Part shown: piece after piece, positions 38,984 through 59,955 of the stretch
Numbering within the stretch: position 1 is the first letter of the stretch
How the letters are laid out: each line of letters starts with the position of its first letter
DNA from: an uncultured Bacteroidota bacterium
GTDB lineage: Bacteria > Bacteroidota > Bacteroidia > Bacteroidales > UBA12077
DNA length: 64,000 nt
Direction: 5' to 3'
NCBI GenBank assembly: GCA_913055635.1
Contig: CAJXLK010000017.1
Span: 1 to 64,000, forward strand
Position numbers and translations under genes: made by a program
The notes under the pieces: generated by a model
Databases searched by the model: none
What the model saw: only the letters and a program-made list of their open reading frames with translations
What the model was told of the DNA's origin: nothing

Positions 38984-40066
38984 TCAACTTTTCCCCTTAT
39001 AGTTGGAAACGATGGTTGGGGCGATGCTGGGCAGGGGAAGCACTCTGTGGATGGCCCCCAGGTCGATGGCCTCTTTGGGCATGCCGAATACCACCGAGGT
39101 TTTTTCGTCCTGGGCGATGGTGTGGGCACCGGCCTGCTTCATTTCGAGTATTCCCCTGGCCCCGTCTCTGCCCATGCCGGTAAGAATAATACCCAGTGCA
39201 TTTCGCCCGGCATAACGGGCCACCGATCGGAACAGCACATCGACCGAGGGGCGGTGGCGGTTGACCATGGGGCCCTCTTTGACTTCCACATAATACCGGG
39301 CGCCACTTCTTTTAAGCAGGGTATGGTAATTGCCCGGGGCGATCAACACATGGCCGCGGATCAGGCTATCGCCATTGACTGCCTCTTTGACCGAAACATG
39401 GCAGGTTTCGTCGAGCCGTTCGGCAAAAGAGCGGGTAAATTGCTCGGGCATATGCTGGACCACGATGATACCCGGGCTGTCCATGGGCAAATCCTGCATA
39501 AGCCTGGCAATGGCTTCCGTACCGCCGGTAGAAGCGCCAACAGCCACCACCACCTCGGTGGTTTCCACCATGCTGTGGGCCGCCTTTTGAGGAATGACGG
39601 CGTCAGCCGAATATTTAGGCTCCACATGGGGCTGTGGCGGGGGAACACTTCGGCGCTTACGCTTGGAAACGGCCGCTGCCTTAATGGCATCACAAATGCG
39701 GATGCTCGATTCATGGATGAACTTTTGCGAATCCATCCGGGGCTTGGTGATGATGTCGACCGCCCCATACTCCATGGCCTTGATGGCCGTGCGGGTGCCC
39801 TTCTCCGTCAAACTTGAAATGATCACCACCGGCATCGGGTGCTGCGACATGATCCGCCGCAAAAAAGTAACCCCGTCCATCCGGGGCATTTCAACATCCA
39901 GGGTGATCACATCCGGTACTTCTTTCTTGATCTTACCGGCCGCAATATAAGGATCGCTGGCAACACCCATCACCTCAAGCTGCGGGTCTTCATTGATGAT
40001 CTCTTCCAAATTCTGCCGCACAACAGCAGAATCATCCACCACCAATACACGAATTTTATTTTTCAT
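38984..40066 (-). CDS. cheB: chemotaxis protein-glutamate methylesterase CheB
   Basis: 360 aa. The receiver domain (1-120) has D57 in [14 protein letters not shown]. The linker holds [12 protein letters not shown]. The methylesterase domain (about 165-350) shows the catalytic triad: Ser in [11 protein letters not shown], His in [10 protein letters not shown] and Asp in [11 protein letters not shown]. It removes methyl groups from, and deamidates, receptor glutamates/glutamines, reversing CheR when phosphorylated by CheA. It is the last gene of the cheR-kinase-cheD-cheB unit, 33 nt after cheD. All catalytic residues are present. Confidence 0.95.
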
Positions 40067-40099
40067 GAAAATGCCCCTTTTGATTCATAATCAACCTGA

Positions 40100-40573
40100 T
40101 TATTCCAGCTCCTGGCGCCTTACGTAGCGCTGACGGACCTGACCGCTGAGGGTATTAAAAATGATCTTCCGCCCGTACTGCCCGCCTGTACTGGAACCCA
40201 CCACCGGTATGCGGTAATCCCCCAGCATATCATAAGCCATGTCAATATTGCGCTGTCCAATATAAAAATAGGGATTTTGACTCTGAATGACCTCACCACC
40301 CCCGAATATTTTGGCTTTCATCTGGCTCCTCCTGCTGCCGTAAGATTCCATCTTCTGGACAAGCCGCTCAATGGCTATATTGCCGTATTTGGGCGAGGCC
40401 AGCCCTGCTCCGTTCCAAAGGGGCAGCATGTAATGGGCCATCCCTCCCATCTGTTCAACCGGATCGTACAAACATACCGCTACACAGGAACCCAAAATGG
40501 TGTGAATATTCTCTTTGCCTTTAGAAACGTAGAGCGCCGCGGGATATAAAAAATGACTGTATCCTGGATTCAT
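40100..40573 (-). CDS. cheD: chemoreceptor glutamine deamidase CheD
   Basis: 157 aa. The family signature is clear: HTILGSCVAVCLYDP with the catalytic Cys, GGMAHYMLP with the His, KIFGGGEV, NIDMAYDMLGDYRIPVVGSS and GGQYGRKIIFN. It deamidates glutamines of receptors and in Bacillus also interacts with CheC. No CheC gene is seen here. It is 11 nt downstream of the atypical kinase gene, in the same transcript as cheR and cheB. Confidence 0.94.
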   Translation of the reverse strand: MNPGYSHFLYPAALYVSKGKENIHTILGSCVAVCLYDPVEQMGGMAHYMLPLWNGAGLASPKYGNIAIERLVQKMESYGSRRSQMKAKIFGGGEVIQSQNPYFYIGQRNIDMAYDMLGDYRIPVVGSSTGGQYGRKIIFNTLSGQVRQRYVRRQELE

Positions 40574-40584
40574 GGGCCATCTGG

Positions 40585-41508
40585 TTAAAAGGTCTCTTCT
40601 TCTCCTGTCTCGGATGGATCTTGATCGCCAAAAAACATCTCGTTGTCGTCATAAGCCACATCATCACTTTCGCTATCAACCTCACTAACCCTTACCGTAA
40701 AGGATGATCCGGCCCCTTCCCTGGTCTTGAAATCTATATCTCCATTGAGTACATCAATCAGGGCCTTATTCACCGATAAACCCAATCCATGGCCCCGGTA
40801 TATGGAATTGATGCCCGAGTCCAGTTTTCGAAACCGGTCAAAAATCACCTCCTGGTTCTCCTTTGAAATACCCGTCCCGTAATCCTTGACCATGATGTGC
40901 AACTGCTTTTTCTCCATCCAACACCTTAACAGAATACTTCCCCCGTCATAACTGAATTTAATGGCATTGCTCATCAGATTGGATATGATCAGTTTCAGCT
41001 TTTCAGGATCGGTCTTGAAGTAAAAAGGCTCTTGCTCGGTGGAATCTATATCAAAACGATAAATAACCTGCAAATGCTTCTTTTTCTTCTCATAATGAAA
41101 ATTGTCCACGACGCTTTGCAGCAACTTCTTGACATCCACATGCACCGTTTCCGGGTAAATCTCTCCGGCCTCCAGCCGAGCCGCCACAAAAATGTTGCGC
41201 AACTGATAATCAAGATGGAAAGCTTCGTAATAAATCATCGAAACCAACGATTGTACCTTTTCCCAATCGGGTTCCTTCATGGCCATAATGCTCTCAGCCA
41301 GTCCCTGGATCGATGAAAAGGGATTGATGATTTCATTGGTGATGTTGGAGATGAAATGCGATTTTAAGGACTCAGACTCCTCCAGCTTCTTGTTGACCTC
41401 TTTCAGTTCTTCATTGAGTTTCTGAACCTCAGCCAAAGATTCTTTATTCTGATCGAAACGCTTCTTTAGCTCCTCCATTAATTCCTGATCGGTTAAATCA
41501 CTCATCAT
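40585..41508 (-). CDS. soluble histidine-kinase-like ATPase lacking the phospho-acceptor histidine
   Basis: 307 aa with no membrane segment. An N-terminal coiled coil (10-50) runs into a dimerisation helix that matches HisKA (LKSHFISNITNEIINPFSSI), but the position of the phosphorylated His (SHE in kinases) is Asn58 (TNE). The HATPase domain is intact: N-box NLMSNAIKFS, DYGTGIS, FDRFRKLD and GHGLGLSVNK. The C-terminal 30 residues are acidic. It can probably bind ATP but cannot autophosphorylate in the usual way. It sits inside the che operon between cheR and cheD, so it may control signalling by heterodimerisation or binding. Start is ATG 41508 or the next codon. Confidence 0.88.
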   Translation of the reverse strand: MMSDLTDQELMEELKKRFDQNKESLAEVQKLNEELKEVNKKLEESESLKSHFISNITNEIINPFSSIQGLAESIMAMKEPDWEKVQSLVSMIYYEAFHLDYQLRNIFVAARLEAGEIYPETVHVDVKKLLQSVVDNFHYEKKKKHLQVIYRFDIDSTEQEPFYFKTDPEKLKLIISNLMSNAIKFSYDGGSILLRCWMEKKQLHIMVKDYGTGISKENQEVIFDRFRKLDSGINSIYRGHGLGLSVNKALIDVLNGDIDFKTREGAGSSFTVRVSEVDSESDDVAYDDNEMFFGDQDPSETGEEETF

Positions 41509-41525
41509 ATTGATTTTTTTGCCAA

Positions 41526-42386
41526 TTATATTCGCTTAAAGATGGTAGGACGGATGGGCTGCAGGGGCACATCCATTCCCATGATGGATTCAGAATGGCC
41601 GATGAAAAAATAGCCGCCGGGGCGAAGCTTATCCAGCAGTTTCTGGATGACCTCCTGCTGTTTGTCCCGGTTGAAATAGATCAGCACATTGCGGCAGAAG
41701 ATCACATCAAAAGTTTCACTGATCGGGTAATGATCATCCATGAAGTTCAGCCTTTTGTAATGGGCTTTTTTTCTAAGCTCCGGCACAATCCTAACCAGCT
41801 TTTTGGAGCGGTCTTTGCTGCGGAGCAAATACCTTTTCTTCAACTCCAGGGGTAAAGTTGCGGCCTTTTCCTCCTTGTAAATGGCATCGACGGCTCTTTG
41901 AAGGATATCGGTCGATATGTCGGTGCCCAGTATGGAATAATTCACCCCGGGATGCTCGCGCAGAAATTCGCTGATGGTCATGGCAATGGTATAGACTTCT
42001 TCGCCGCTGGAACATCCGGCACTCCATATTTTCATCGTCCGGTTCAGGGGAAACTGTTCGATGTATTCGGGGAGAATCGATTTCTCCATAAACTCAAAAT
42101 GTACCGGTTCCCGGAAAAAATCGGTTTTATTGGTGCTGACCACATCCAGCATATGGATCAACTCATTTTGAAGGCCTTCCTCGCTGAAGACATAATCCAC
42201 ATACTCCTTGAATGAGGTCATGTTCAGCTGCCTCAGACGTTTCTGGAGCCGGCTTTGGAGCATCACCCTTTTTACATCAGGCATTTTGATGCCGGCTTGC
42301 TCAGTAATAAAGCGGCTGAGCTTGCGAAACTCCTCATCGCTCATCCGGGCTTTATAGATTTGACTGATATTGGCAGGATCGCTCAT
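41526..42386 (-). CDS. cheR: chemotaxis protein methyltransferase CheR
   Basis: 286 aa, the normal length. The N-terminal helical domain (RKLSRFITEQAGIKMPDVKR) is followed by the SAM-binding domain with IWSAGCSSGEEVYTIAM, YSILGTDISTDILQRA, FDVIFCRNVLIYFN and GGYFFIGHSESI. It methylates glutamates of the receptor cytoplasmic bundle. It is the first gene after the terminator-like inverted repeat at 42441-42526, and it is followed 17 nt later by the atypical kinase gene. Confidence 0.95.
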   Translation of the reverse strand: MSDPANISQIYKARMSDEEFRKLSRFITEQAGIKMPDVKRVMLQSRLQKRLRQLNMTSFKEYVDYVFSEEGLQNELIHMLDVVSTNKTDFFREPVHFEFMEKSILPEYIEQFPLNRTMKIWSAGCSSGEEVYTIAMTISEFLREHPGVNYSILGTDISTDILQRAVDAIYKEEKAATLPLELKKRYLLRSKDRSKKLVRIVPELRKKAHYKRLNFMDDHYPISETFDVIFCRNVLIYFNRDKQQEVIQKLLDKLRPGGYFFIGHSESIMGMDVPLQPIRPTIFKRI

Positions 42387-42683: not shown

Positions 42684-45074
42684 TTAACTTCTCTCGTCTT
42701 CATCACTCTTGTTATGGGGGTTATTTCCGTTATTTTTTCCTGTATCGTTTTTGCCGGGGGAATTGTTGCCGGGGTCTTCCCGGCCGTTTCCACCGGCATT
42801 GCTCTGGTTATTGCCTGTGGCGTTGTTCTGGTTACCGCCCTTAAAATTGCTCTGACGATGGTTTCCATTCCCTCCCTGACTATCCAGGTTCAAATCAAAC
42901 CCTTTTTGCCGGTTGGAGGAGGGGTTAAAGTGGTTGGTTCCCTGGGTACCTTGGGGTGCCTGGGTTCCGTAGCTTCCCTGCTGGTTCGGCCCATCGCCAT
43001 TTTGGGCATTAAAAGCTTTCAGGCGGTGTTGGTGTTGTTGGCCCTTCTGGCCCGATTGCGGGGCAGATTGGGTTTGTCGCCTTTGTTGTTGGCCGCCCTG
43101 CTTCTGGCCACCCTGCTTTTGACCTGCACCAACCGTGGTGAACTGACTGGAGGATGATCCGGCACTTTGCTGTTGACCGGTTTTAAAATAGTCGATGGCC
43201 GAGTTCAGCTGATCGGCCTGGCTGGCCAATTCTTCGCTACTGGTAGCCAACTCCTCGGAGGAGGCTGCATTTTGCTGGGTCACCTCATTGAGCTGCTGAA
43301 TGGCGTTGTTGATCTGATCGGCCCCCGAATTTTGCTCCTGTGAAGCCGCATTGATCTCCTGGACCAGCTTGGCGGTTTTTTCTATTTCAGGCAGCAACTT
43401 CTCGAGCTGTTTGCCCGATTCTTCGGTAACCTTGACGCTGTTATCGGCCAGATCAACGATCTCATCGGCAGCTTTCTTGCTGCGGTCAGCCAGCTTCTTG
43501 ACTTCCGAGGCGACCACCGAGAATCCTTTACCATACTCACCGGCCCGGGCAGCCTCCACGGCAGCATTCAGGGCCAGGATATTGGTCTGGAAGGCAATGT
43601 CATTGATGATGGTAATCTTATCGGCAATCTCGCGAATGGAGCTCAGGCTCTTCTTGCCGGCTTCATCCATCTTTTCCACCTCTTTGGCTGCGCTGTTGGC
43701 AATCTGCTCCGTCTGCTGGGCATTTTGCGTATTCTGCTGAATGTTGGATGCCATCTCCTCCATCGACGAAGAGACTTCTTCTACCGAGGAAGCCTGTTCA
43801 GAGGAGCCCTGCGACAATTGCTGGGAGCTGGAACTGACCTGCTGACTGGCCGAGGCAATGTTGTCAGAGCCTTCCCGCACATTCTCAACCACTTCCCGTA
43901 ATTTATAGACCATCTGATTCATGGCTCCGGCCAACTCGCCCACTTCATCTTTTTGATCCAGATCAACCGTGGCGGTCAAATCGCCGGCGGCTACCCGCTT
44001 GGCAAAATCAACCCCTTTGTTCAACCCCCGGGTGATCGAGCGGCTTACCTGCCGGTTGATGATCACAAAAAGCCCAATGCCCAGGACAATCGCCACAACA
44101 ATGGCAAGACGGGTCTGATTGATCAGGCCCAGAAAATCCTCCTCATAAATGGAAGCCACCACATACGAATTGATCGGTTCCACATACTTGTAATACTGAA
44201 ATTTGGCCTTGCCCTTCCACATATACTCAAGCTGGCCCTGGCCATCCTGATCGGCCATCATGCGCTGAATAAAATCCTCCTGGGCCACATTCGAGCCTTC
44301 GGTCTGCGAATTGGGGTGTATGATCACATCCCCGTCCTTATCGACCATGTAGGGATAACCGTTTTCAAAATAGGTTTTGCTGTAGAACAGCTCACTCAAT
44401 CCTTCCATATCCTTTTCAGGCACACCCACGCCAATCAGCCCGACAACCTGCCCATTCTTACGGATGGGCTTCTGAGCGGTCAGATACATCTGATCCACCA
44501 CCCGGGCCCTTCCTTTATAGACCCGGCCTGCGGAGATGGTTTGAGCTACCTCCGATGAACTGGGCACAAACGTACCCATCTGGCGTTTGCCGGCTTCATT
44601 TTTTACCGTAGTGGCAATGCGGCAATAGCCCCCGTCGATGCGCTGGAAAATAGAAACATCGGCACCGGTCATCTCCTTGAGCCGGTCCACAAAATCATTG
44701 TTCCTCAGCACCTGATTGCTCCCAATCTTCCAGATGGGAATGCGCTGGCTATGGCTACGCCCTGTTTGCTGGTTCTTTACATTGATCTGAACCATGGCAC
44801 TGTCTATCACACGCAGTTGCCCCTGGTTGCTAAAAACATAGCTGGCGGTTTCCAGGGCATGGTTGGTATTTTTTTGATGTTGTTCTACTTCTGCTTTGAT
44901 AAATTTAGCCAGGTCATTGACCTGCTCATTCATTCGGGTATCGGTGCTTTCATGAATCTGGTTGCTTTGTATCTGCATGGTGTAAATGCCCAAAGCCACA
45001 ACCACTACAATAAAGGCAAAACTAAGGATTAAATTCAACCGCGTCCCGATCTTCATATTTTTTAAAGAAAGCAT
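42684..45074 (-). CDS. methyl-accepting chemotaxis protein with long low-complexity tail
   Basis: 796 aa. TM1 (about 8-30) and TM2 (about 310-330) flank a periplasmic double-Cache sensor ([20 protein letters not shown], then [16 protein letters not shown]). A HAMP domain and the MCP signalling bundle (about 390-640) with the hairpin tip [20 protein letters not shown] follow. The last 150 residues are rich in Gln, Gly, Asn and Ser ([31 protein letters not shown]) and end DEDERS, without the NWETF-like CheR tether. The frame is open to 45311, but the ATG at 45074 has an AGGGGA Shine-Dalgarno. A later ATG at 45056 (MKIGTRL) is also possible. It is downstream of cheW in the same unit. Confidence 0.92.
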
Positions 45075-45180
45075 ATAATTCCCCTGTTTGCAATGAACCC
45101 GTGGATTAAATCCATCAGGGTTATTTGACAATTCGTTGATTATCCAATTCAATTTAAAAAGGTGAAGCCACAGGAATTTG

Positions 45181-45774
45181 TCACTGCGCGTTTTCAGAAG
45201 CCGAGGTCTGGGCAGCTTGCTGTTCGTCCTCCTGCTGACTATTTTCCCGGGAGCCGCCGTTGGTTTGTTCAACGCCCTGCTGACGGCCCTGCTCAGTAGA
45301 AGCCTGAACATTCATCATTTCTTCTGCGGAAAAAACCTTGTCCATATCCAGGATCATAATGAATTTTTCCTCCACCTTGGCCATTCCGCTGATGAATTCC
45401 GATTTGTACTTGGAGCCAATGCTCGGAGGTGGCTGAATCTGATCCTCAGTGATCTCGAGCACTTCCTGCACCGAATCGACCAGGGTTCCTACCTGCACCT
45501 CTTCTCCGTTCACATTGACCTCCATCACCACAATGCAAGTATTGGCGGTGAATTCGGTCGGAGTCATCCCGAATTTGATGCGGGTATCGACCACCGGTAA
45601 AACCTGCCCCCGCAAATTGATCACCCCTTGCATATAATCAGGGGATTTGGGAACTTTGGTGATTTTGACCATTTCCATAATGCTCAAAACCCGGCTAACA
45701 TGCGCGGCGAATTCTTCTTCACCCAGTTTGAAAGTTAAATAAGAGTTGATTTGTTCTAATTCTTCCTTGTTCAT
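45181..45774 (-). CDS. cheW: chemotaxis coupling protein CheW
   Basis: 197 aa. The SH3-like CheW domain (about 10-150) shows [39 protein letters not shown] and [17 protein letters not shown]. It couples the receptor to CheA. Most CheW proteins are about 150-165 aa. Here a further 45 residues of Gln/Glu/Ser/Asn-rich sequence ([19 protein letters not shown]) form a disordered tail. It starts 11 nt after cheA and ends 106 nt before the mcp start. Confidence 0.93.
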
Positions 45775-45785
45775 CGTGATATCTT

Positions 45786-47924
45786 TTATGATTCCACATT
45801 AATCTGTTGTTGATAATCGCTGGTAAAGCGATCGATCATCTTATTGGTATCCATCACCAGGGCTACGGTTCCATCACCCAAAATGGTGGCCCCGGATATC
45901 ATATCCTGATATTTATACATCTTGCCCAATGACTTCAGCACGGCCTGATACTCGCCAATGACTGTATCTACGACCAGCCCGATGCGGTTGCCTTCATACT
46001 GGACCACCACAATTTCCTCGGTTTGGGACTCGGCCTCAGGCATATCAAATTCTTTACGCAGGTAGAAGAAAGGAATGCGTTCGCCATCGAGTACGATCAG
46101 GTTGTTGAACTTATCGACCACATCGCTGTGGTTGGCTGCGTATATCTTGTGAACAGCCGAGAGGGGGATCACATATTTGTTGTCGGATATTTGAACCAGC
46201 AGCCCGTCAATGATGGAGAGTGTCAGGGGCAACTTAACGGTAAGGGTGGTGCCGGTGCCGGGTTCGGAATCTATTTCCACCTCCCCGCGGATCTCTGCCA
46301 GGTTCCTTTTCACCACATCCATGCCCACACCCCGGCCTGATACGTCGGTTACGTTGGTGGAGGTTGAGAAGCCGGGGGTAAAAATCAAATCAAAGAGTTC
46401 TTTTTGGGAGAGGCTGGCCTCCGGGCTAATAAGTTTTTGCTTGACCGCCTTTTGTTTGATTTTTTCAGCATCCAGGCCTTTGCCGTCATCATGCACCTGG
46501 ATGTGAACACTGGCCCCTGAATAATAGGCTTTAAGCATGATGGTTCCCTCTTCGGGTTTTCCGGCCCGTCTTCTCTCCTCAGGGGTTTCAATGCCATGGT
46601 CAATGCAATTTCTCAGAATGTGCAATAAAGGATCGGTCAGGGTTTCAATGATATTCTTATCCAGCTCGGTTTCAGTGCCTTCTGTTTTCAGGCGCACTTT
46701 TTTACCCAGGCTGTTGGACAGGTCGCGTACCAGGCGGTTAAACCGGGTAATCATCGTTTCCACCGGTACCAGGGCAATATCGAAAGCATTGTCGCGAAGC
46801 TGTCGGGTAAGCTTTTGAACGTTTTCGGCGATGGCCTCCAACTCATTGTCTTCAGATTGATCGGCATGAAGGCTCAGGCGGGCCTGGGTGGTGACCAGCT
46901 CACTGACCAGGTTCATCATATGGTCAATCTTCTCTGACTCAACCCGGATGCTCGAGATGGCATCCTCTTTTTTCCCCCCGCCATTGGCTTTTGGGCTTGC
47001 TGGCTTCTGATTGCCTGTATCCTTGCCTTGGTTTTGCTGGCCTCCGGTTCCCTGATTTCCCGACTTCCCGCTGGAGGCATCCCGGCTTTGTGAAGTGTGG
47101 GCCTCAGGTTGGACCGACTCCTGGTGCTGGGCCACATATTTGATGGCATCCAATCCGATGAGCTGATCTTTCCGGTAATTTTGTTCCAAAAATTGGGCAA
47201 AGACACTGTTTTCCAAAAGATTGCCCTGAGAAAGCCGGTGAATGTCGATCCGGGCCTGATCTTCAACAAAAATAAACACATCATGGATGGCATCTTCCGT
47301 TTCATCGGTAACCAAAACCACTTCCCAGTGCGTATAGCATTTTTGAGGATCAAGCTGATCAAGCCGGGGGATGCGATCCAGACAGGGCATCACATAAGCC
47401 TGGCCCAGGTTGGCCAGCTCATCCATCAGGAACAACGGGTTGGTGCCGTTGTCAAAAAGACGTTCTTCCGGCTCAAAATAGATGTAGAACGTTTTGGTCT
47501 TATCCTGTCGCTGGTTTGAATTCTGTGGGGTTTCAGGCTCCTGTTGCTTCTCCTGGAGATATTTCCTGATCTGAATATCCAGGTTTTTATGGCGGGTTTG
47601 CGTTTCATCCGACATCTCATCTCCCTGGTGGAGCAACACTTTTAAATGATCCACCGCATCCAGGGTCAAATCCAGTAAGCCCTGGTTGACTTGCATGTTG
47701 CCCTCCCGAACCTGGTCATACACATTTTCCAGGTGATGGGTAAATTCGCTGAGCTGGTTGAAACCAAACATGGCCCCACCTCCCTTGAGGGAATGCATAT
47801 AGCGAAAAACCCGCTCAATCAGGTCAGAATCCTGGGGCGACTGTTCCAACTTCAGCAATGCTTCTTCCAGTTCGGCAAGGTTCTCGGTGGCTTCTTCCTG
47901 AAATTTTTGTTTGAAATTGTCCAT
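45786..47924 (-). CDS. cheA: chemotaxis histidine kinase CheA
   Basis: 712 aa. An Hpt domain (1-105) has the phosphorylated His44 in RYMHSLKGGGAMFGF. A second domain (about 145-265; FYIYFEPEERLFDNGTNPLF) is of a type I associate with many non-enteric CheA proteins. A Gly/Gln/Ser/Lys-rich linker (about 270-320) follows, then the dimerisation helix, the HATPase domain (HILRNCIDHGIETPEERR, VHDDGKGLD, GRGVGMDVVKRN) and the C-terminal CheW-like regulatory domain (VIPLSAVHKIY). It phosphorylates CheY and CheB. Its start codon overlaps the stop of cheY by 1 nt. Confidence 0.95.
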   Translation of the reverse strand: MDNFKQKFQEEATENLAELEEALLKLEQSPQDSDLIERVFRYMHSLKGGGAMFGFNQLSEFTHHLENVYDQVREGNMQVNQGLLDLTLDAVDHLKVLLHQGDEMSDETQTRHKNLDIQIRKYLQEKQQEPETPQNSNQRQDKTKTFYIYFEPEERLFDNGTNPLFLMDELANLGQAYVMPCLDRIPRLDQLDPQKCYTHWEVVLVTDETEDAIHDVFIFVEDQARIDIHRLSQGNLLENSVFAQFLEQNYRKDQLIGLDAIKYVAQHQESVQPEAHTSQSRDASSGKSGNQGTGGQQNQGKDTGNQKPASPKANGGGKKEDAISSIRVESEKIDHMMNLVSELVTTQARLSLHADQSEDNELEAIAENVQKLTRQLRDNAFDIALVPVETMITRFNRLVRDLSNSLGKKVRLKTEGTETELDKNIIETLTDPLLHILRNCIDHGIETPEERRRAGKPEEGTIMLKAYYSGASVHIQVHDDGKGLDAEKIKQKAVKQKLISPEASLSQKELFDLIFTPGFSTSTNVTDVSGRGVGMDVVKRNLAEIRGEVEIDSEPGTGTTLTVKLPLTLSIIDGLLVQISDNKYVIPLSAVHKIYAANHSDVVDKFNNLIVLDGERIPFFYLRKEFDMPEAESQTEEIVVVQYEGNRIGLVVDTVIGEYQAVLKSLGKMYKYQDMISGATILGDGTVALVMDTNKMIDRFTSDYQQQINVES

Positions 47925-48289
47925 TAGCGCATAACTTTTTTAAGAGCAGCCAGCAATTTGGCCGGAACAAAAGGCTTGACGATCCACCCGGTGGCCCCCG
48001 CATCTTTGGCCTCCTGCTTTTTGGAAGCCTGCGATTCGGTGGTCAGAAACAAAATCGGCACACGTTGGTATTGATCCTTATTGCGTATCTCCTTGATCAA
48101 TTCAATGCCATCCATCTCGGGCATATGCAAATCAGTAATTACCAAATCAATCGGATCGCCATTGAGGTGCTTCAAAGCATCCTTGCCATCATTCCCCAAT
48201 TTAACCTCATACCCCTCATTTTCAAGGGTAAAAGAAACAACTTCGCGGATGCTCTCTGAATCATCAACAACTAGAATATTTTTGCCCAT
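47924..48289 (-). CDS. cheY: single-domain response regulator CheY
   Basis: 121 aa, a stand-alone receiver. It has the acidic pair D9-D10, the phospho-acceptor D53 in LVITDLHMPEMDG, Thr in FLTTES, and Lys in WIVKPF. It begins 17 nt after the STAS gene and is coupled to cheA. Because no flagellar genes are in the window, its target is unknown: in this phylum it may address gliding or another process. Confidence 0.93.
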   Translation of the reverse strand: MGKNILVVDDSESIREVVSFTLENEGYEVKLGNDGKDALKHLNGDPIDLVITDLHMPEMDGIELIKEIRNKDQYQRVPILFLTTESQASKKQEAKDAGATGWIVKPFVPAKLLAALKKVMR

Positions 48290-48306: not shown

Positions 48307-48630
48307 TTAGGTTCTTAATATCGGATCAAACCCCGCATGATCAACCAGGGTCTGGGTCTCGTCCATCAGCTCAGCCGAGATGGAAATGGTTTTATCATAT
48401 TCCTCAGCGGTCTTTCTCAGGGACTCGATCAGCTGAATGAAACTCAAATCAATATTTTCCACATTTTTGATCTGAATATCAAGTTGATCATACTGATGGA
48501 TCGCGTCGAGGAAATTTTCCTTAATCTCCAGGACCGTATAAATGGTCAGTTCCTTTTCTACGACCATACGGGCCTTGTTTTCTTTCTTCTTACCATAAGG
48601 GGTAATGGTCACATGTTTGCTTGCTCTCAT
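48307..48630 (-). CDS. STAS-domain protein
   Basis: 107 aa. After a basic start (MRASKHVTITPYGKKKENK) comes a single STAS-type domain: EKELTIYTVLEIKENFLDAI, QIKNVENIDLSFIQLIESLR, then ISISAELMDETQTLVDHAGF. STAS domains act as anti-anti-sigma factors or scaffold switches. The position between the coiled-coil gene and cheY suggests a structural or signalling part in the chemosensory complex. The Ser in LSFIQLIESL lies where the regulatory Ser/Thr is found in phosphorylatable STAS proteins, but I cannot prove equivalence. Confidence 0.78.
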   Translation of the reverse strand: MRASKHVTITPYGKKKENKARMVVEKELTIYTVLEIKENFLDAIHQYDQLDIQIKNVENIDLSFIQLIESLRKTAEEYDKTISISAELMDETQTLVDHAGFDPILRT

Positions 48631-48655: not shown

Positions 48656-50434
48656 TCAGAATAGTTCCAGGTCACCTCCTTCTTCTCCAGCCTCAATTTC
48701 AGGGGACTCGCCTTTAGAGACGCTGTCATGGACCTTGAATTCGGTGCTCATGGTGTAGTATTCCCGCAGCTTCTGCAGGTTTTCCTCCTTACTCTCGCCA
48801 CTGTAGCTGGAATAAAGTTTAAGGTTGTAGTTAACCGTATTGAGTTGTTCAATGATGTCGCCAATGACATTTTCGAAATACTCGTAATACTGAATGCGGT
48901 TAACCGAATTTTGAACTTCCGAGTAGATTTGTTCACTCTTCTCGTTGTTCTCTTTGAGTTTTTCTAATATTTGCTGTTCGATCTGCCCTAATTTTTCGAG
49001 ATAAGCGCGTATTTTTCCCGGCAAATCCTCTGCACCATTGCCCTTATCATAGAGGTTGGCCATGGAATCACGTTCCAGCTCCTGGCGGATGGTTTGATAG
49101 TCCTCAAAAATGCTGGTCAGCAGCCCCTGATTGTTCTGCAAATCGCCATGCAGCTGGCTGATCTGTTGGACGATTGCATCGTCCTTGCTTTCGGTTTGCC
49201 CGTTGGTCAGGGTTTTTTTAAGGATATCATTCAATTGCTGCATATACTGATTGACCCGCTCATGTCCATCCTTCAGCTGATCGAGGATGGATTGGATTTC
49301 ATCCCGCTTGTCAGAAAAAGCCCGGGTAAACCGGCAAAAACTCTCGATCTGGCCTTTGGCCTGATCCAGGTTCTGCTTCAAACCACTCATAAATTCCGGG
49401 CTGCCCTGGTCTGAGGCAATATACTGGTTGCACATGGCCGAGACCCGGGTCATGCTCTGGCCAATTTCAAGAAACTTATCCGAAATCTTCTGGATGGCCG
49501 TCTGGTATTCCTTGTTGGTATGCATCAGCTGAGCAGCCTGCAATCCGGCAATATCCCGAATGCGGATAAAATAATCCGCTTTGGTCTGATCATCTACCTG
49601 GTCTTCCTGCTGCTCCATGGCAGAGATTTCTTCCAGCAACTGCTTATGCGTGTGCTGAATATGCTCCATCTTTTGTTTGATGATGTCCTGGTATTGTAAA
49701 TTGGTGACGATGCCGGCAATATTTTCAGAACTGCGCTGGGTCTCGGTTTTTATGGCCGGCAGATGCTCACGGATGTTCTGATAATGGCCCGAGTAAGATT
49801 CAATCTCCCTTTTTAAAAGGGTTAAAATGTTCTGAATATCCGAGCGTTCCCTGTTAAATTGTTCTTTTAACTCAAAATGCGCCCGGATCATTTGCTTAAG
49901 CTTGGACAACAAAGTCTCAATACTCCCCAGCTGCGCCTTCAACTGCTCCGAAATCTCCTGGATGGCCATCGGCGGGACTTCCCGCTCCTGATCAAAGGGT
50001 ATCTTCAGCTCATAATTGCTCTCCAAAAATTTCAGGCTGGTCAGATTCTGCTTAAAATTCTTGATGGGGAAAAAACTCTGCCTTAACCGGGAAAGCAAAC
50101 GGGTAAGGGCTTCAGATATCACTTCAATGTGGCCGTCCAGGATCTCCGTCCTCGATCGCAATTCCTGGTACAACTTCTCGATGCCCGCAACCATCTCGGC
50201 ATTTTCATTGCCCGTGATGTAATGGAATAAATAAGAGGCATTGTCGGAGATCTGCCGGGCTTGCCCGTGAAAATCGCGAAAATCCCGGTTTAAATTCATG
50301 AAATCTTCTGACGACACCTGGTGCAAGGAAACAATTTGTTCATCCACCCGCGTAAAGAAAGCCGTGAGGTCCTTCAGTGAATAAGCGGTTAATAGCGACT
50401 TAAGCTGTCCGGAATCTGTATTTTTTTCGCTCAT
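48656..50434 (-). CDS. large helical protein of the che operon with two CheZ-like DxxxQ motifs
   Basis: 592 aa, almost entirely alpha-helical with coiled-coil heptads, no membrane segment and an acidic C-terminus (SKGESPEIEAGEEGGDLELF). No family is recognised. Two segments stand out: LQYQDIIKQKMEHI (D250, Q254) and FENVIGDIIEQLNTV (D526, Q530). Both place an acidic residue and Gln four positions apart in a helix, as in the QDxxxQ active site of the CheY-P phosphatase CheZ. It lies between two receiver genes and STAS-cheY-cheA. A role as CheY-P phosphatase or array scaffold is inferred. A GTG at 50440, immediately after the upstream stop, is an alternative start. Confidence 0.7.
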   Translation of the reverse strand: MSEKNTDSGQLKSLLTAYSLKDLTAFFTRVDEQIVSLHQVSSEDFMNLNRDFRDFHGQARQISDNASYLFHYITGNENAEMVAGIEKLYQELRSRTEILDGHIEVISEALTRLLSRLRQSFFPIKNFKQNLTSLKFLESNYELKIPFDQEREVPPMAIQEISEQLKAQLGSIETLLSKLKQMIRAHFELKEQFNRERSDIQNILTLLKREIESYSGHYQNIREHLPAIKTETQRSSENIAGIVTNLQYQDIIKQKMEHIQHTHKQLLEEISAMEQQEDQVDDQTKADYFIRIRDIAGLQAAQLMHTNKEYQTAIQKISDKFLEIGQSMTRVSAMCNQYIASDQGSPEFMSGLKQNLDQAKGQIESFCRFTRAFSDKRDEIQSILDQLKDGHERVNQYMQQLNDILKKTLTNGQTESKDDAIVQQISQLHGDLQNNQGLLTSIFEDYQTIRQELERDSMANLYDKGNGAEDLPGKIRAYLEKLGQIEQQILEKLKENNEKSEQIYSEVQNSVNRIQYYEYFENVIGDIIEQLNTVNYNLKLYSSYSGESKEENLQKLREYYTMSTEFKVHDSVSKGESPEIEAGEEGGDLELF

Positions 50435-50440
50435 CGGCAC

Positions 50441-50818
50441 TTAATTAACGATTTGTTCAACTTTCATCAAAAAATTGTTGATGTCAATGGGCTTGTTGAT
50501 TACATCCTCCGCCCCCAAATCCATAGCTTTTTTGGTATTGTCATGATTGTCATAGGCCGTTACCACAACCACCGGATACATCTGCCGATTATGCCCGTTC
50601 CTTAACCGCTCCATGAACTCAAAACCGTCCATCCCGGGCATCAATAAATCCAACAGGATTAAATCAGGCTGATGGTCATGGATATATTGAACCGCCTGAT
50701 AAGAATTGCTCATCAACTTAACTTCATAGCCGGCATCTTCCAGTACTGCGCTAAGCAACAACAGGTTGGTCTCCGAATCGTCTACCACAAGTATTTTTTT
50801 CTTTTCCGATTGTACCAT
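50441..50818 (-). CDS. single-domain response regulator, first gene of the che operon
   Basis: 125 aa receiver domain. It has D13-D14, the phospho-acceptor D57 in LILLDLLMPGMDGFEF, Thr in VVTAYDN and Lys in VINKPIDINNF. Compared with the CheY at 47924 it has a longer alpha4-alpha5 region with NHDNTKKAMDLGAED, so it is a distinct regulator and not a recent duplicate. The stop is followed at once by the large helical gene. The promoter lies about 55 nt upstream of the ATG. Confidence 0.9.
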   Translation of the reverse strand: MVQSEKKKILVVDDSETNLLLLSAVLEDAGYEVKLMSNSYQAVQYIHDHQPDLILLDLLMPGMDGFEFMERLRNGHNRQMYPVVVVTAYDNHDNTKKAMDLGAEDVINKPIDINNFLMKVEQIVN

Positions 50819-50904: not shown

Positions 50905-51023
50905 GGCTTCCCCAGTGATTTGAATTATTGAGTAAAATGATTTATACATATTTGATAAGATGAGCCAAATCATCCGGCCAGTCGTAACCCCGTGACAGTG
51001 AGATGTACATAAATGTATGAGTG

Positions 51024-51725
51024 ATGAAGGAACAAAAACATATCGATAGCCAACCCAAGCAGACCACCCAGGATATCATTCCTTTTCAAAATCTCCTTTC
51101 CGGGGAGGAAATTGAGCAAATCAAGGCCCATAGCAACATTGTGACCTATCATGAAAATGATGTGATCTTTAAGCAGGATACCCGCACTTCCCATTTTATG
51201 TATATCCTCTCGGGTTTGATTAAGATATACCGGGAAAATCGCAACAACAAAGTAAAAATCATCAAGCTGGGGATCCCCGGAGAGCTTTTAGGGATCAACT
51301 CCGTAATGGGAGAGGAAACATTCAGTTATTCAGCGGCTGCCCTTGAAAAGACAACCATCCAAATCATAGACTACAATGTACTGGAAACCATTCTGTTAAA
51401 CAACGGGCAGTTTTCCATGGCTTTGATGGAGAACATTTGTTCCGACAACCTCAACATCTTTAAACGCCTGATCAGTCAGTCGCAAAAACAATTACCCGGG
51501 CGCATCGCCGACATTATCCTTTACTTCTCGGATAACATCTACTACTCCAAAAATTTCACCTTTCCCCTGACCCGCAGCGAACTGGCCGAATTGGCCGGAA
51601 CCACGAAAGAAAGCCTGATCCGGACACTGACCGAATTTAAAAACGATAAAATCATCCTGCTGGAAGGCAAAAAAGTGCAAATCACCAGTGAGGACATTCT
51701 CAAAACCCTGAGTCGAATAGGGTAA
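51024..51725 (+). CDS. Crp/Fnr-family transcriptional regulator, divergent from the che operon
   Basis: 233 aa. The beta-roll sensor domain (about 25-150; VTYHENDVIFKQDTRTSHFM, YILSGLIKIY, KLGIPGELLGINSVMGEE) is followed by a winged helix-turn-helix (about 175-230; FPLTRSELAELAGTTKESLI, RTLTEF). There is no cysteine cluster for an iron-sulfur centre. A GTG one codon upstream (51021) is an alternative start. It is divergent from the chemosensory operon and 30 nt upstream of a receiver gene, so it may control one or both. The effector is unknown. Confidence 0.9.
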   Translation: MKEQKHIDSQPKQTTQDIIPFQNLLSGEEIEQIKAHSNIVTYHENDVIFKQDTRTSHFMYILSGLIKIYRENRNNKVKIIKLGIPGELLGINSVMGEETFSYSAAALEKTTIQIIDYNVLETILLNNGQFSMALMENICSDNLNIFKRLISQSQKQLPGRIADIILYFSDNIYYSKNFTFPLTRSELAELAGTTKESLIRTLTEFKNDKIILLEGKKVQITSEDILKTLSRIG

Positions 51726-51755
51726 GATAATTTAGAAAGGAAAGAAAAAGCAGAA

Positions 51756-52151
51756 ATGAGCAATCTCAGATACAATTTTCTGATCGCCGACGACATCATC
51801 ATGAACCGTTTTTTGCTGCGGGAAATTGTGACCGAAATCGCCAACGAAGTCTTTGAAGCCGGCAATGGAAATGAAGTGATCGACCTGCTGAACAACAAAT
51901 CCGTTGATATCATTTTAATGGATATCGAGATGCCGGAGATGAACGGGGTCGACACCACCAAATTCATCCGCAACAAAATGGAGCCTCCCCTAAGCGAAAC
52001 CCCGATTATTGCCCTCACTGCACACAATCCGAAAGATTTTTTTGAAAACCACCGCAATGTGGGATTTGATCATCTGATCACCAAACCCTATTCCATTGAG
52101 AAGGTCATGCAGGTGATCTCCACCCTTGACCACATACCAAAATCCAGATAG
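51756..52151 (+). CDS. single-domain response regulator
   Basis: 131 aa receiver. It has the acidic pair in LIADDIIMNRFLL, the phospho-acceptor Asp in IILMDIEMPEMNGVD (about 56), the Thr in IIALTAHNP and the Lys in LITKPYSIEK. This is the receiver type usually attached to hybrid kinases, here free-standing. It follows the Crp/Fnr gene and ends 1 nt before the next ATG, so it is co-transcribed with both. It is the third free receiver near the che genes. Confidence 0.9.
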   Translation: MSNLRYNFLIADDIIMNRFLLREIVTEIANEVFEAGNGNEVIDLLNNKSVDIILMDIEMPEMNGVDTTKFIRNKMEPPLSETPIIALTAHNPKDFFENHRNVGFDHLITKPYSIEKVMQVISTLDHIPKSR

Positions 52152-57839: not shown

Positions 57840-58835
57840 TTAAAATCTTCTCAGCCAGCGATAACGGCGCTGGGAATCCCCAAAGCGCAGTCCGACCATA
57901 ATTTCGTGTGAACCATAGGAAAGGTTTTGGATATCTCTGAGGGAATAATCATAGGCATATCCAAAGTAAAGTTTGCCAACCTTAACACCCACCATACTAA
58001 TCAGGGCACTGCCTGTACGGTATGAAAAGCCCATCCAGTAATCATTTTTATAATAGGCTTTCACGTTGATATCGGCCTGCATGTTAAAATCTTCTGTGGA
58101 ATGGAGCAACAGGGAAGGCTCCAGGGAATACTTGTCATCAATTTGAATGCGGTATCCACCCATCAGATAATAATTGCGCAGGAGTTTATAGCTGCTGTAG
58201 GAATCGTCCGAGCCAAACTTGAGCACGCTCTGAAACAGGTTGGTACCGGAAAAACCCACATAAAGGTTATGGTACATATAATAAATGCCGGCGCTGGCAT
58301 CAGGGATAAACATGGTGTTGCGCCTACCTTCAATCAAGGGATCGGGCACACCCAGATCTTCATCGGGCAGGATGAGTTCATCATCATCGATCTTGAACTG
58401 ATAGATGGTTCCGGAAGCACCAAAAGAAAGCTGTCCTTCGCCTACCTGAATGTGATAAGCATAGGTACCCTGCAACCCTGTACGGTTGATGACACCATTG
58501 CGGTCATTAAAAACATATCCTCCCAGACCAACCCTTCCGCTGGGTTTTTTCCTGGAGGTATTCCGGATCAAGCGGGATTTGGACAGAAAACTGGTTTTCA
58601 AAACCCGTGTTTGTACAGCAAGTGCCTGAGTTGATGGGGTATTGGCATCTCCAAAGCCCATCCATTGCTGGCGGGCTGTGAGGTTGTAGGAGGTATAACC
58701 TTCACTTCCGGCAAAAGCCGGGTTAAGCAGGTATTTGTTCATCATGTACTGGCTGTAAAGGGGTACCTGTTGGGCCTTCAGGGCCGAAGGCAGCACCATC
58801 AATACAAAGGCCAGTAAAAGCATCAATCGTTTCAT
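57840..58835 (-). CDS. PorP/SprF-family type IX secretion outer-membrane protein
   Basis: 331 aa. Signal peptide MKRLMLLLAFVLMVLPSALK, then QQVPLYSQYMMNKYLLNPAF, the characteristic start of PorP/SprF proteins, then a beta-barrel (GYRIQIDDKYSLEPSLLLHS, YWMGFSYRTGSALISMVGV) ending in EIMVGLRFG. These proteins pair with secreted proteins carrying the type B C-terminal domain, and the gene just upstream encodes such a protein, 34 nt away. The open frame reaches 59126 but overlaps that gene. The ATG at 58835 with the signal peptide is the real start. Confidence 0.92.
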   Translation of the reverse strand: MKRLMLLLAFVLMVLPSALKAQQVPLYSQYMMNKYLLNPAFAGSEGYTSYNLTARQQWMGFGDANTPSTQALAVQTRVLKTSFLSKSRLIRNTSRKKPSGRVGLGGYVFNDRNGVINRTGLQGTYAYHIQVGEGQLSFGASGTIYQFKIDDDELILPDEDLGVPDPLIEGRRNTMFIPDASAGIYYMYHNLYVGFSGTNLFQSVLKFGSDDSYSSYKLLRNYYLMGGYRIQIDDKYSLEPSLLLHSTEDFNMQADINVKAYYKNDYWMGFSYRTGSALISMVGVKVGKLYFGYAYDYSLRDIQNLSYGSHEIMVGLRFGDSQRRYRWLRRF

Positions 58836-58869
58836 ATCGCGTTTAAATTTCGAAACCCACATACTCCAT

Positions 58870-59955
58870 TTAGCGGATAATGGTGACACTTCCGTAGATC
58901 GGTTTTTCTCCGTTACCCAGCTTGATGATGTAATAATACGAGTCCATCGGCAGCTTATGGCCGTTGCGATCGGTGCCATCCCAATAATCGCCGGATTCAT
59001 AGCCATTGGAACGGAACACCATTTCGCCGTGGCGATCAAAGACCTGGACCACACAATTCGGATACAACGACAGGGCCGGAATCTTCCATTTGTCGTTGAC
59101 CTGATCGCCACCCGGGGTAAAGGCATTGGGGATCCTCAGTTTGCCATAAACCGAGACCGTGATGCTGTCACGGGCAGAACAACCAAATTCGTTGGTGACC
59201 GAGACCCAATAATTTCGGGATTGTTTGCCAGCCTCAGCAGTACCCACATCACTATCCTCTACGTCTATCGTAGACATCATTTCACCGGTATTCCATTCAT
59301 AGGAACTCCACATGCCAGCATCCAGGGTGACGTATTCCACCTCACCGGCGGCAAAGGATACGCTGTCATCGGTTATCTGGACCTTGTCGGGATACATGGT
59401 GCTGACTTGTATGTCCACATCCGGATTATCATGAACGGTCAACTCAACAGAATCCCGATCCTGACAACCATACTGATCGGTCACCTGCACCCAGATGAGT
59501 CCTGAAGAATCAGCCGTGTAATAAGACTGCTGGCTGCTGTCCTGCCACATGTAAGATTCATAGCCTGTTCCCGGGGAGAATTCAATGGAAGAGCCTTCAC
59601 AAATCTCCTGGTCCATGCCCAGATCGGCAAATGTGCTGCGCACATCCACTACATATCTTTGGGTCTCTCCTTCGCAATAAGTATCTGAGCCCGTAATGGC
59701 ACTGATCTCCTTTACCGATATAACCCCTTCATCGGTGTCTTCATGCCATCTGACCCGAACTTCACTTCCCAGGCTATCGATAAAGCTTCCGCCTTCCACC
59801 TCCCACTGAAAAATGCTGTTGTAGGAATAGGTCGAATTGACGGCATAAACAGCTTCATCTCCGGTACAGACCACCGAATCGGTCTGGGAGACAGCCGGAG
59901 CCGCAAAAAAGATCGTAAGCCCTAGGAGGAAGATGATATGTAGCAGCCGTTTCAA
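58870..59955 (-). CDS. secreted protein with gliding-type (type B) C-terminal sorting domain
   Basis: 361 aa. Signal peptide (1-23), two or three Ig/PKD-like segments with cysteine pairs (VCTGDEAVYAV, EICEGSSIEFSPGTGYESYM), and the CHU_C domain from about 275: LRIPNAFTPGGDQVNDKW, VVQVFDRHGEMVF, YWDGTDRNGHKLP and YYYIIKLGNG. This domain sends proteins through the type IX system and is usually matched with a PorP/SprF partner encoded next door, as here. The protein probably reaches the cell surface. It is short for the class, perhaps an accessory subunit for the larger modular proteins upstream. Confidence 0.9.
   Translation of the reverse strand: MKRLLHIIFLLGLTIFFAAPAVSQTDSVVCTGDEAVYAVNSTYSYNSIFQWEVEGGSFIDSLGSEVRVRWHEDTDEGVISVKEISAITGSDTYCEGETQRYVVDVRSTFADLGMDQEICEGSSIEFSPGTGYESYMWQDSSQQSYYTADSSGLIWVQVTDQYGCQDRDSVELTVHDNPDVDIQVSTMYPDKVQITDDSVSFAAGEVEYVTLDAGMWSSYEWNTGEMMSTIDVEDSDVGTAEAGKQSRNYWVSVTNEFGCSARDSITVSVYGKLRIPNAFTPGGDQVNDKWKIPALSLYPNCVVQVFDRHGEMVFRSNGYESGDYWDGTDRNGHKLPMDSYYYIIKLGNGEKPIYGSVTIIR

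Follow-up and report, generated by a model that had tools for sequence, protein, structure and literature searches.

How is the CheY signal switched off in a chemosensory system with no recognisable CheY-P phosphatase? The question is raised by a 64,000-nucleotide stretch of DNA from an uncultured Bacteroidota bacterium (the window), in which a che operon runs on the reverse strand in the order RR-X-STAS-CheY-CheA-CheW-MCP-CheR-HK-CheD-CheB (Table 1). The preliminary description of the locus had recognised no such enzyme in the cluster, Pfam models for CheZ, CheC and CheX detected none of these phosphatases in the whole assembly (99% complete), and by Pfam the CheA of the operon has no receiver domain able to act as a phosphate sink. 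CheZ catalysis relies on an acidic residue together with an amide (DxxxQ) to place the attacking water (PMC3510030). The preliminary description proposed that the helical protein X is a CheY-P phosphatase with Asp and Gln four residues apart, as in CheZ, and that it carries two such sites in one chain in place of the two sites of a CheZ dimer.

Gene X and the che operon

X was read from an ATG (592 aa); starting instead at a GTG two codons upstream would lengthen it to 594 aa and shift residue numbers by +2. The coordinates, the frame and both strings on which the proposal was built, QDIIKQ (D250/Q254) and GDIIEQ (D526/Q530), are present as first given, and the predicted model is all helix, with a mean pLDDT of 78, in line with the earlier helical prediction. 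Searches of Pfam and NCBIfam returned no credible family for X; weak matches to SMC, MCE, Mycoplasma two-TM and other models were rejected as coiled-coil noise, and neither a CheC nor a CheX domain was among the Pfam matches. A fold search with the full model, which excludes nothing, returned generic helical bundles, with CheZ not among the matches listed. Likewise, PDB sequence searches with the X family and the motif segment gave coiled-coil or unrelated matches, CheZ not being among those listed. Plasmid tblastn searches with X or its segments as query gave no match, and we found no description of this architecture in the open literature, of which coverage was incomplete.

Table 1. Positions in the window of gene X, its parts and the neighbouring genes
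Feature	Position	Strand	Basis
X, candidate CheZ-type CheY-P phosphatase, 592 aa, all-helical	48656..50434	-	frame, translation, predicted model
Half 1, residues 20-275: helices, hairpin, descending helix ending in motif	49610..50377	-	model, half-versus-half profile match
Half 2, residues 282-538, tandem copy of half 1	48821..49591	-	hhalign
DxxxQ motif, residues 246-260, LQYQDIIKQKMEHIQ	49655..49699	-	invariant, most conserved block; equivalence to CheZ FQDLTGQ via intermediates
D250 codon	49685-49687	-	
Q254 codon	49673-49675	-	
Degenerate second site YYEYFEN, residues 516-522	48869..48889	-	half-2 counterpart of site 1
D526/Q530, second motif of the preliminary description	48845..48859	-	not conserved, chance
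Conserved YTMxxExxxH segment, residues 560-569	48728..48757	-	alignment; similar segment in relatives
C-terminal peptide DLELF, candidate CheY-docking tail, after acidic disordered linker	48659..48673	-	conservation
Single-domain receiver, directly upstream of X	50441..50818	-	PF00072 1.6e-30; synteny conserved
STAS-domain protein between X and cheY	48307..48630	-	PF13466 9.6e-8; synteny conserved
CheY, likely substrate	47924..48289	-	76-79% identical in same-family orthologous loci
CheA: Hpt, dimerisation, ATPase, CheW domains	45786..47924	-	Pfam
CheW	45181..45774	-	preliminary description and alignment to operon orthologues
CheR, HisKA-type histidine kinase, CheD, CheB	38984..42386	-	names from preliminary description/sequence; kinase by Pfam

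The order RR-X-STAS-CheY-CheA-CheW is conserved in orthologous loci; in loci of sufficient length, CheR, the histidine kinase and CheD come next. X had been placed between two receiver genes; one of them is indeed directly upstream, but the STAS gene parts X from cheY. Across the family, X and cheY keep this small STAS gene between them, and by eye we noted a similar small frame at the corresponding place in the distant relative L047. Several other features of the region were observed. Within the operon, the HisKA-type kinase (40585-41508) sits between CheR and CheD, and orthologous loci show it in synteny. The MCP frame (42684-45311) overlaps cheW as listed, so that its true start is probably further in, and its C-terminus is a long low-complexity tail rich in Q, G and N. 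Divergent from the operon, a Crp/Fnr-type regulator and a single-domain receiver (51021-52151) adjoin it in nearly all same-family loci.

Among 39 related genomes, X is present in 22, the window's own counted, and it co-occurs with CheA: 20 genomes have both, 2 only X, 1 only CheA and 16 neither (Fisher 6e-8). Both X-only genomes carry decayed copies. In G003 a 100-aa remnant lies near a contig end, and in G013 (L090 3926-4998) the operon is missing from mid-X to CheB, leaving the X remnant in frame with CheB; this join may be an assembly artefact instead of a deletion. The one exception to co-occurrence is the CheA-only genome G035 (L091 2759-5488), in which STAS-CheY-CheA has no X upstream. 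Pfam models for CheZ and CheX matched nothing in any of the 39 relatives. FliG was found in no genome carrying X, from which the output of the system would appear not to be flagellar. Type IX gliding as the output is a guess; look-alikes of PorP/SprF-type proteins and of gliding C-terminal-domain proteins of the type IX secretion system (57840-59955) were recognised in the window by eye only.

One conserved DxxxQ site in a duplicated protein

To assess the two proposed sites, we compared all available copies of X, with 16 full-length proteins in the alignment. All 19 intact copies share Y248, D250 and Q254; the sole exception among the available copies is the broken one of G013, with its frame running into CheB. 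The most conserved 13-mer of the protein is residues 246-258, LQYQDIIKQKMEH, and the predicted helix 248-275 holds the motif, which reads YQDIIKQ or, in some copies, YHDIIRQ. As in CheZ, [FY]Q precedes DxxxQ, and the motif agrees with the greater part of the CheZ signature in the literature, AXXF(Y)Q-DXXXQ, which has Y in epsilon CheZ (PMC7750401). Conservation of D250 and Q254 is far beyond chance. Because these two residues are invariant while the whole protein diverges, with identity to full-length orthologues outside the genus of only 23-35%, a catalytic reading of X is favoured.

The other pair behaves differently. Position 526 is E, D, K, Q, R or N, and position 530 is E in 15 of 20 copies, with Q only in the window. 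Since conservation separates D250/Q254 from D526/Q530, we regard the first site as real and the string GDIIEQ as chance, which rules it out as a second active site. Of the four residues whose conservation the proposal depended on, D250 and Q254 are thus kept and D526 and Q530 are not.

X is, by its sequence, an internal tandem duplication. Comparison of residues 1-278 with 279-592 by hhalign gave a co-linear alignment of 235 columns (22-276 with 285-539) with a score of 35.5, against a best score of 28.2 among 120 block-shuffled nulls. In this alignment LQYQDIIKQ of half 1 pairs with IQYYEYFEN of half 2, making E518/N522 the counterparts of D250/Q254; position 518 is acidic in 17 of 19 copies, and position 522 is N, K, Q, V or L. 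The predicted model breaks at 247 and at 516-517, equivalent points of the two halves, and the half-1 hairpin has a weak tip near residues 144-154. The N-terminal half modelled alone reached a pLDDT of 63, versus 78 for the entire chain, which lends weak support to the two halves packing together. The idea of two sites in one pseudo-dimeric chain is therefore retained as to the duplication, whereas its second site moves from D526/Q530 to the degenerate YYEYFEN. The best reading from these alignments is that X has one intact site and one that appears vestigial.

The C-terminal tail is also conserved. Its family consensus is [IVL]-E-[FLY]-F-COOH, E590 and F592 being present in 19 of 19 copies that reach the end, and the acidic linker before it has low model confidence. 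IELF and VELF ends occur in relatives of X as well. The E-x-F tail resembles the CheY-docking tail of CheZ, a CheY-binding peptide (...DDLLxSLGF), in a formal sense.

Intermediates between X, MCP hairpins and CheZ

With a profile of the X family, only 7 further proteins were found in 395 Bacteroidota genomes, all near cheA in CheA-bearing genomes. Three kinds of relatives were distinguished. Proteins of 597-666 aa read IQFHDITRQ or LQSHDFARQ, have Pfam MCPsignal matches and end in VELF or IELF. Those of 455-461 aa carry the motif as IQFQDVLRQ, a single canonical MCP hairpin, and IELF close to the end. The third kind, of 218-224 aa, has LQFHDIVxQ and a SQADIDALF-like tail, and gave Pfam CheZ E values of 2e-6 and 2e-7, one of them above the cut-off. 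Starting from the 455-aa protein, tblastn led to plasmid genes of Methylobacterium and Methylosinus, and from the Methylobacterium gene to Sphaerotilus. All of these genes are annotated as methyl-accepting chemotaxis proteins, read Q-F-Q-D-x-x-x-Q and end in IELF; those of Methylobacterium and Sphaerotilus come directly after a receiver gene in a cheA cluster, and that of Methylosinus has receiver and cheW genes in its vicinity. Over the motif, the Methylosinus (alphaproteobacterial MCP-like) protein gave a match to the NCBIfam CheZ model NF041271 at 2.5e-5. Judging from their CheZ-like DxxxQ and IELF end, the plasmid-borne proteobacterial "MCP" genes (L053 3113-4396, L052 3317-4348, L056 4755-6029) may be misannotated phosphatases.

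The MCP-like DxxxQ proteins (L045-L048 and those of Methylobacterium, Methylosinus and Sphaerotilus) share with X the motif Q[FY][QH]DxxxQ, although one of them has S in place of the aromatic residue, and an [IV]ELF sequence at the C-terminus or adjoining it. They also share nearby receiver genes and, in most cases, a Y-[TV]-rich segment ahead of the tail. In contrast to X, which gave no PF00015 (MCPsignal) match, they keep MCP signalling hairpins, some of them single, that Pfam or NCBIfam recognises.

The relationship to CheZ was examined with a 63-position motif profile, A5, whose input was X, two of its orthologues (a close and a remote one) and MCP-like proteins; canonical CheZ was absent from it. 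At E values up to 0.01, A5 matched 60 places in 51 of the 395 Bacteroidota genomes. Pfam CheZ matches with E values up to 0.001, the majority of them over the cut-off, overlap with 45 of these places, and 53 places have a cheA gene no more than 6.5 kb away; CheA is present in 49 of the 51 positive genomes versus 107 of the 395 overall. The short proteins recovered in this way read IMMALQVQDITSQQ and can be aligned directly with E. coli CheZ, IMMAQDFQDLTGQ; the three that were tested pass the Pfam CheZ cut-off. In G281, G262, G423 and G383, one CheA adjoins a short CheZ and a second CheA adjoins a large DxxxQ protein, so that each system has its own. An apparent CheZ-CheA fusion in G088 was discarded, its open frame crossing a stretch of N.

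In hhalign comparisons with the motif segments in register, X matched the MCP-like proteins at 4e-11, two CheZ-size proteins at 1.7e-7 and Bacteroidota CheZ at 4.5e-5, and Bacteroidota CheZ matched gamma CheZ at 2.7e-6; these P values are optimistic, because we picked the segments for containing the motif and came upon the first intermediates by means of the X profile. Independent checks on them are the overlap with Pfam CheZ and the proximity to cheA. In the tested pairs, 100 column-permuted nulls never reached the observed score except for X against gamma CheZ, where the direct segment match was marginal (P 0.044, 3 of 100 nulls as high); the full-length comparison of this pair gave no significant match. 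Thus, the profile-profile comparison suggested for X is significant by way of the Bacteroidota intermediates, and because its direct counterpart is only marginal, the link to classical CheZ runs through them. The curated Pfam CheZ model (PF04344) matched neither whole X nor its motif segment. NF041271 matched the segment weakly (E 0.006-0.009), unrelated NCBIfam models scoring about as well on motif segments. Because the curated model test fails, X is considered CheZ-like by prediction and is not filed under PF04344.

E. coli CheZ (PF04344; D143/Q147) and X have in common the [FY]QDxxxQ helix motif in register, a helical build, a gene near cheY and cheA, an acidic linker and a hydrophobic C-terminal peptide ending in F. 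They differ in that CheZ has 214 aa and X nearly three times as many in tandem-duplicated form with no Pfam CheZ score; in that the tail of X is E-x-F and not DDLLxSLGF; and in that X belongs to a che operon in a genome without FliG. CheZ proteins (about 200-250 aa) form a four-helix bundle from a dimer of hairpins; X is modelled as all-helical and is internally duplicated. Bacteroidota CheZ (218-380 aa; LQVQDITSQQ or LQFHDIVTQ) resembles X in motif, gene position and recovery by the motif profile, but is short, has a classical, mostly SQDDIDALF-like tail, and in most cases passes or approaches the Pfam CheZ cut-off. CheC, CheX and FliY (ExxN) are alike in proposed function only, their motif and fold family being different.

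Proposed function of X and alternatives

Motif conservation, gene context, co-occurrence with CheA and the blind recovery of CheZ genes all support the core of the original proposal, that of a CheZ-type phosphatase with Asp and Gln four residues apart. On this evidence X very probably switches the CheY signal off, and we think it likely that it does so as a CheZ-type CheY-P phosphatase built on a duplicated MCP-like hairpin, with the CheY of its operon as substrate. By analogy with CheZ, Q254, on the half-1 helix with D250, would complete the active site of CheY by orienting the attacking water towards its aspartyl-phosphate, and a contact of D250 with the conserved CheY lysine would fix the complex. 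The acidic linker and terminal E-x-F peptide may serve as a tether for CheY. The tandem hairpins would let one chain form the bundle that CheZ builds as a dimer, with the second site vestigial.

A variant of this reading concerns the substrate. X could act mainly on the receiver at 50441 or that at 51756, a less probable arrangement but one compatible with a CheZ-type phosphatase: the first receiver gene is directly upstream, the second is kept beside the operon, and the STAS gene keeps X from being immediately adjacent to cheY. In the distant relatives, however, the clearest common partner is a CheY near cheA. It is unlikely that X is instead a soluble degenerate chemoreceptor or array scaffold whose MCP-like hairpins organise CheA and CheW and whose DxxxQ is kept for packing. 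Such a role would fit the Pfam MCPsignal domains of distant relatives, of which one has a canonical hairpin tip, and the first rank of a Thermotoga MCP in the PDB profile search, in which coiled-coil bias is possible; yet X has neither an MCPsignal match nor a recognisable tip while its motif is invariant, and the same motif profile recovers CheZ genes.

Rather improbable, too, is a non-catalytic CheY-P binder that serves as sink, anchor or output adaptor through its tail peptide. The invariant E-x-F does resemble a receiver-docking peptide and the second site is degenerate, but binding alone would not need both catalytic residues of site 1, which every intact copy keeps. We give least credence to an ordinary coiled-coil protein with two QDxxxQ-like strings by chance. 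Chance does explain motif 2, and helical proteins yield many weak matches, but motif 1 is conserved and its profile recovered CheZ genes blind. A CheZ-type phosphatase thus appears to be the best explanation for X.

Surveys of genomes rely on models of CheZ, CheC and CheX to score phosphatases and then reason from their absence. Such absence has been used as an argument for phosphate-sink domains (PMC10542144), and Geobacter was concluded to need a CheZ-independent mechanism (PMC2577667). X is a CheZ-type candidate able to escape these models; if our reading is true, many chemosensory systems with no apparent "off" enzyme have one that has been missed. The MCP-like intermediates also bear on the origin of CheZ. 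It is possible, though we hold this view tentatively, that X is part of a branch of the CheZ superfamily which is widespread, has gone unrecognised and merges by degrees with MCP signalling hairpins, that many small "MCPs" are CheY-P phosphatases, that CheZ and the MCP hairpin perhaps share ancestry, and that many "phosphatase-free" systems are not so. X also provides a testable candidate off-switch for one chemosensory system of non-flagellated Bacteroidota.
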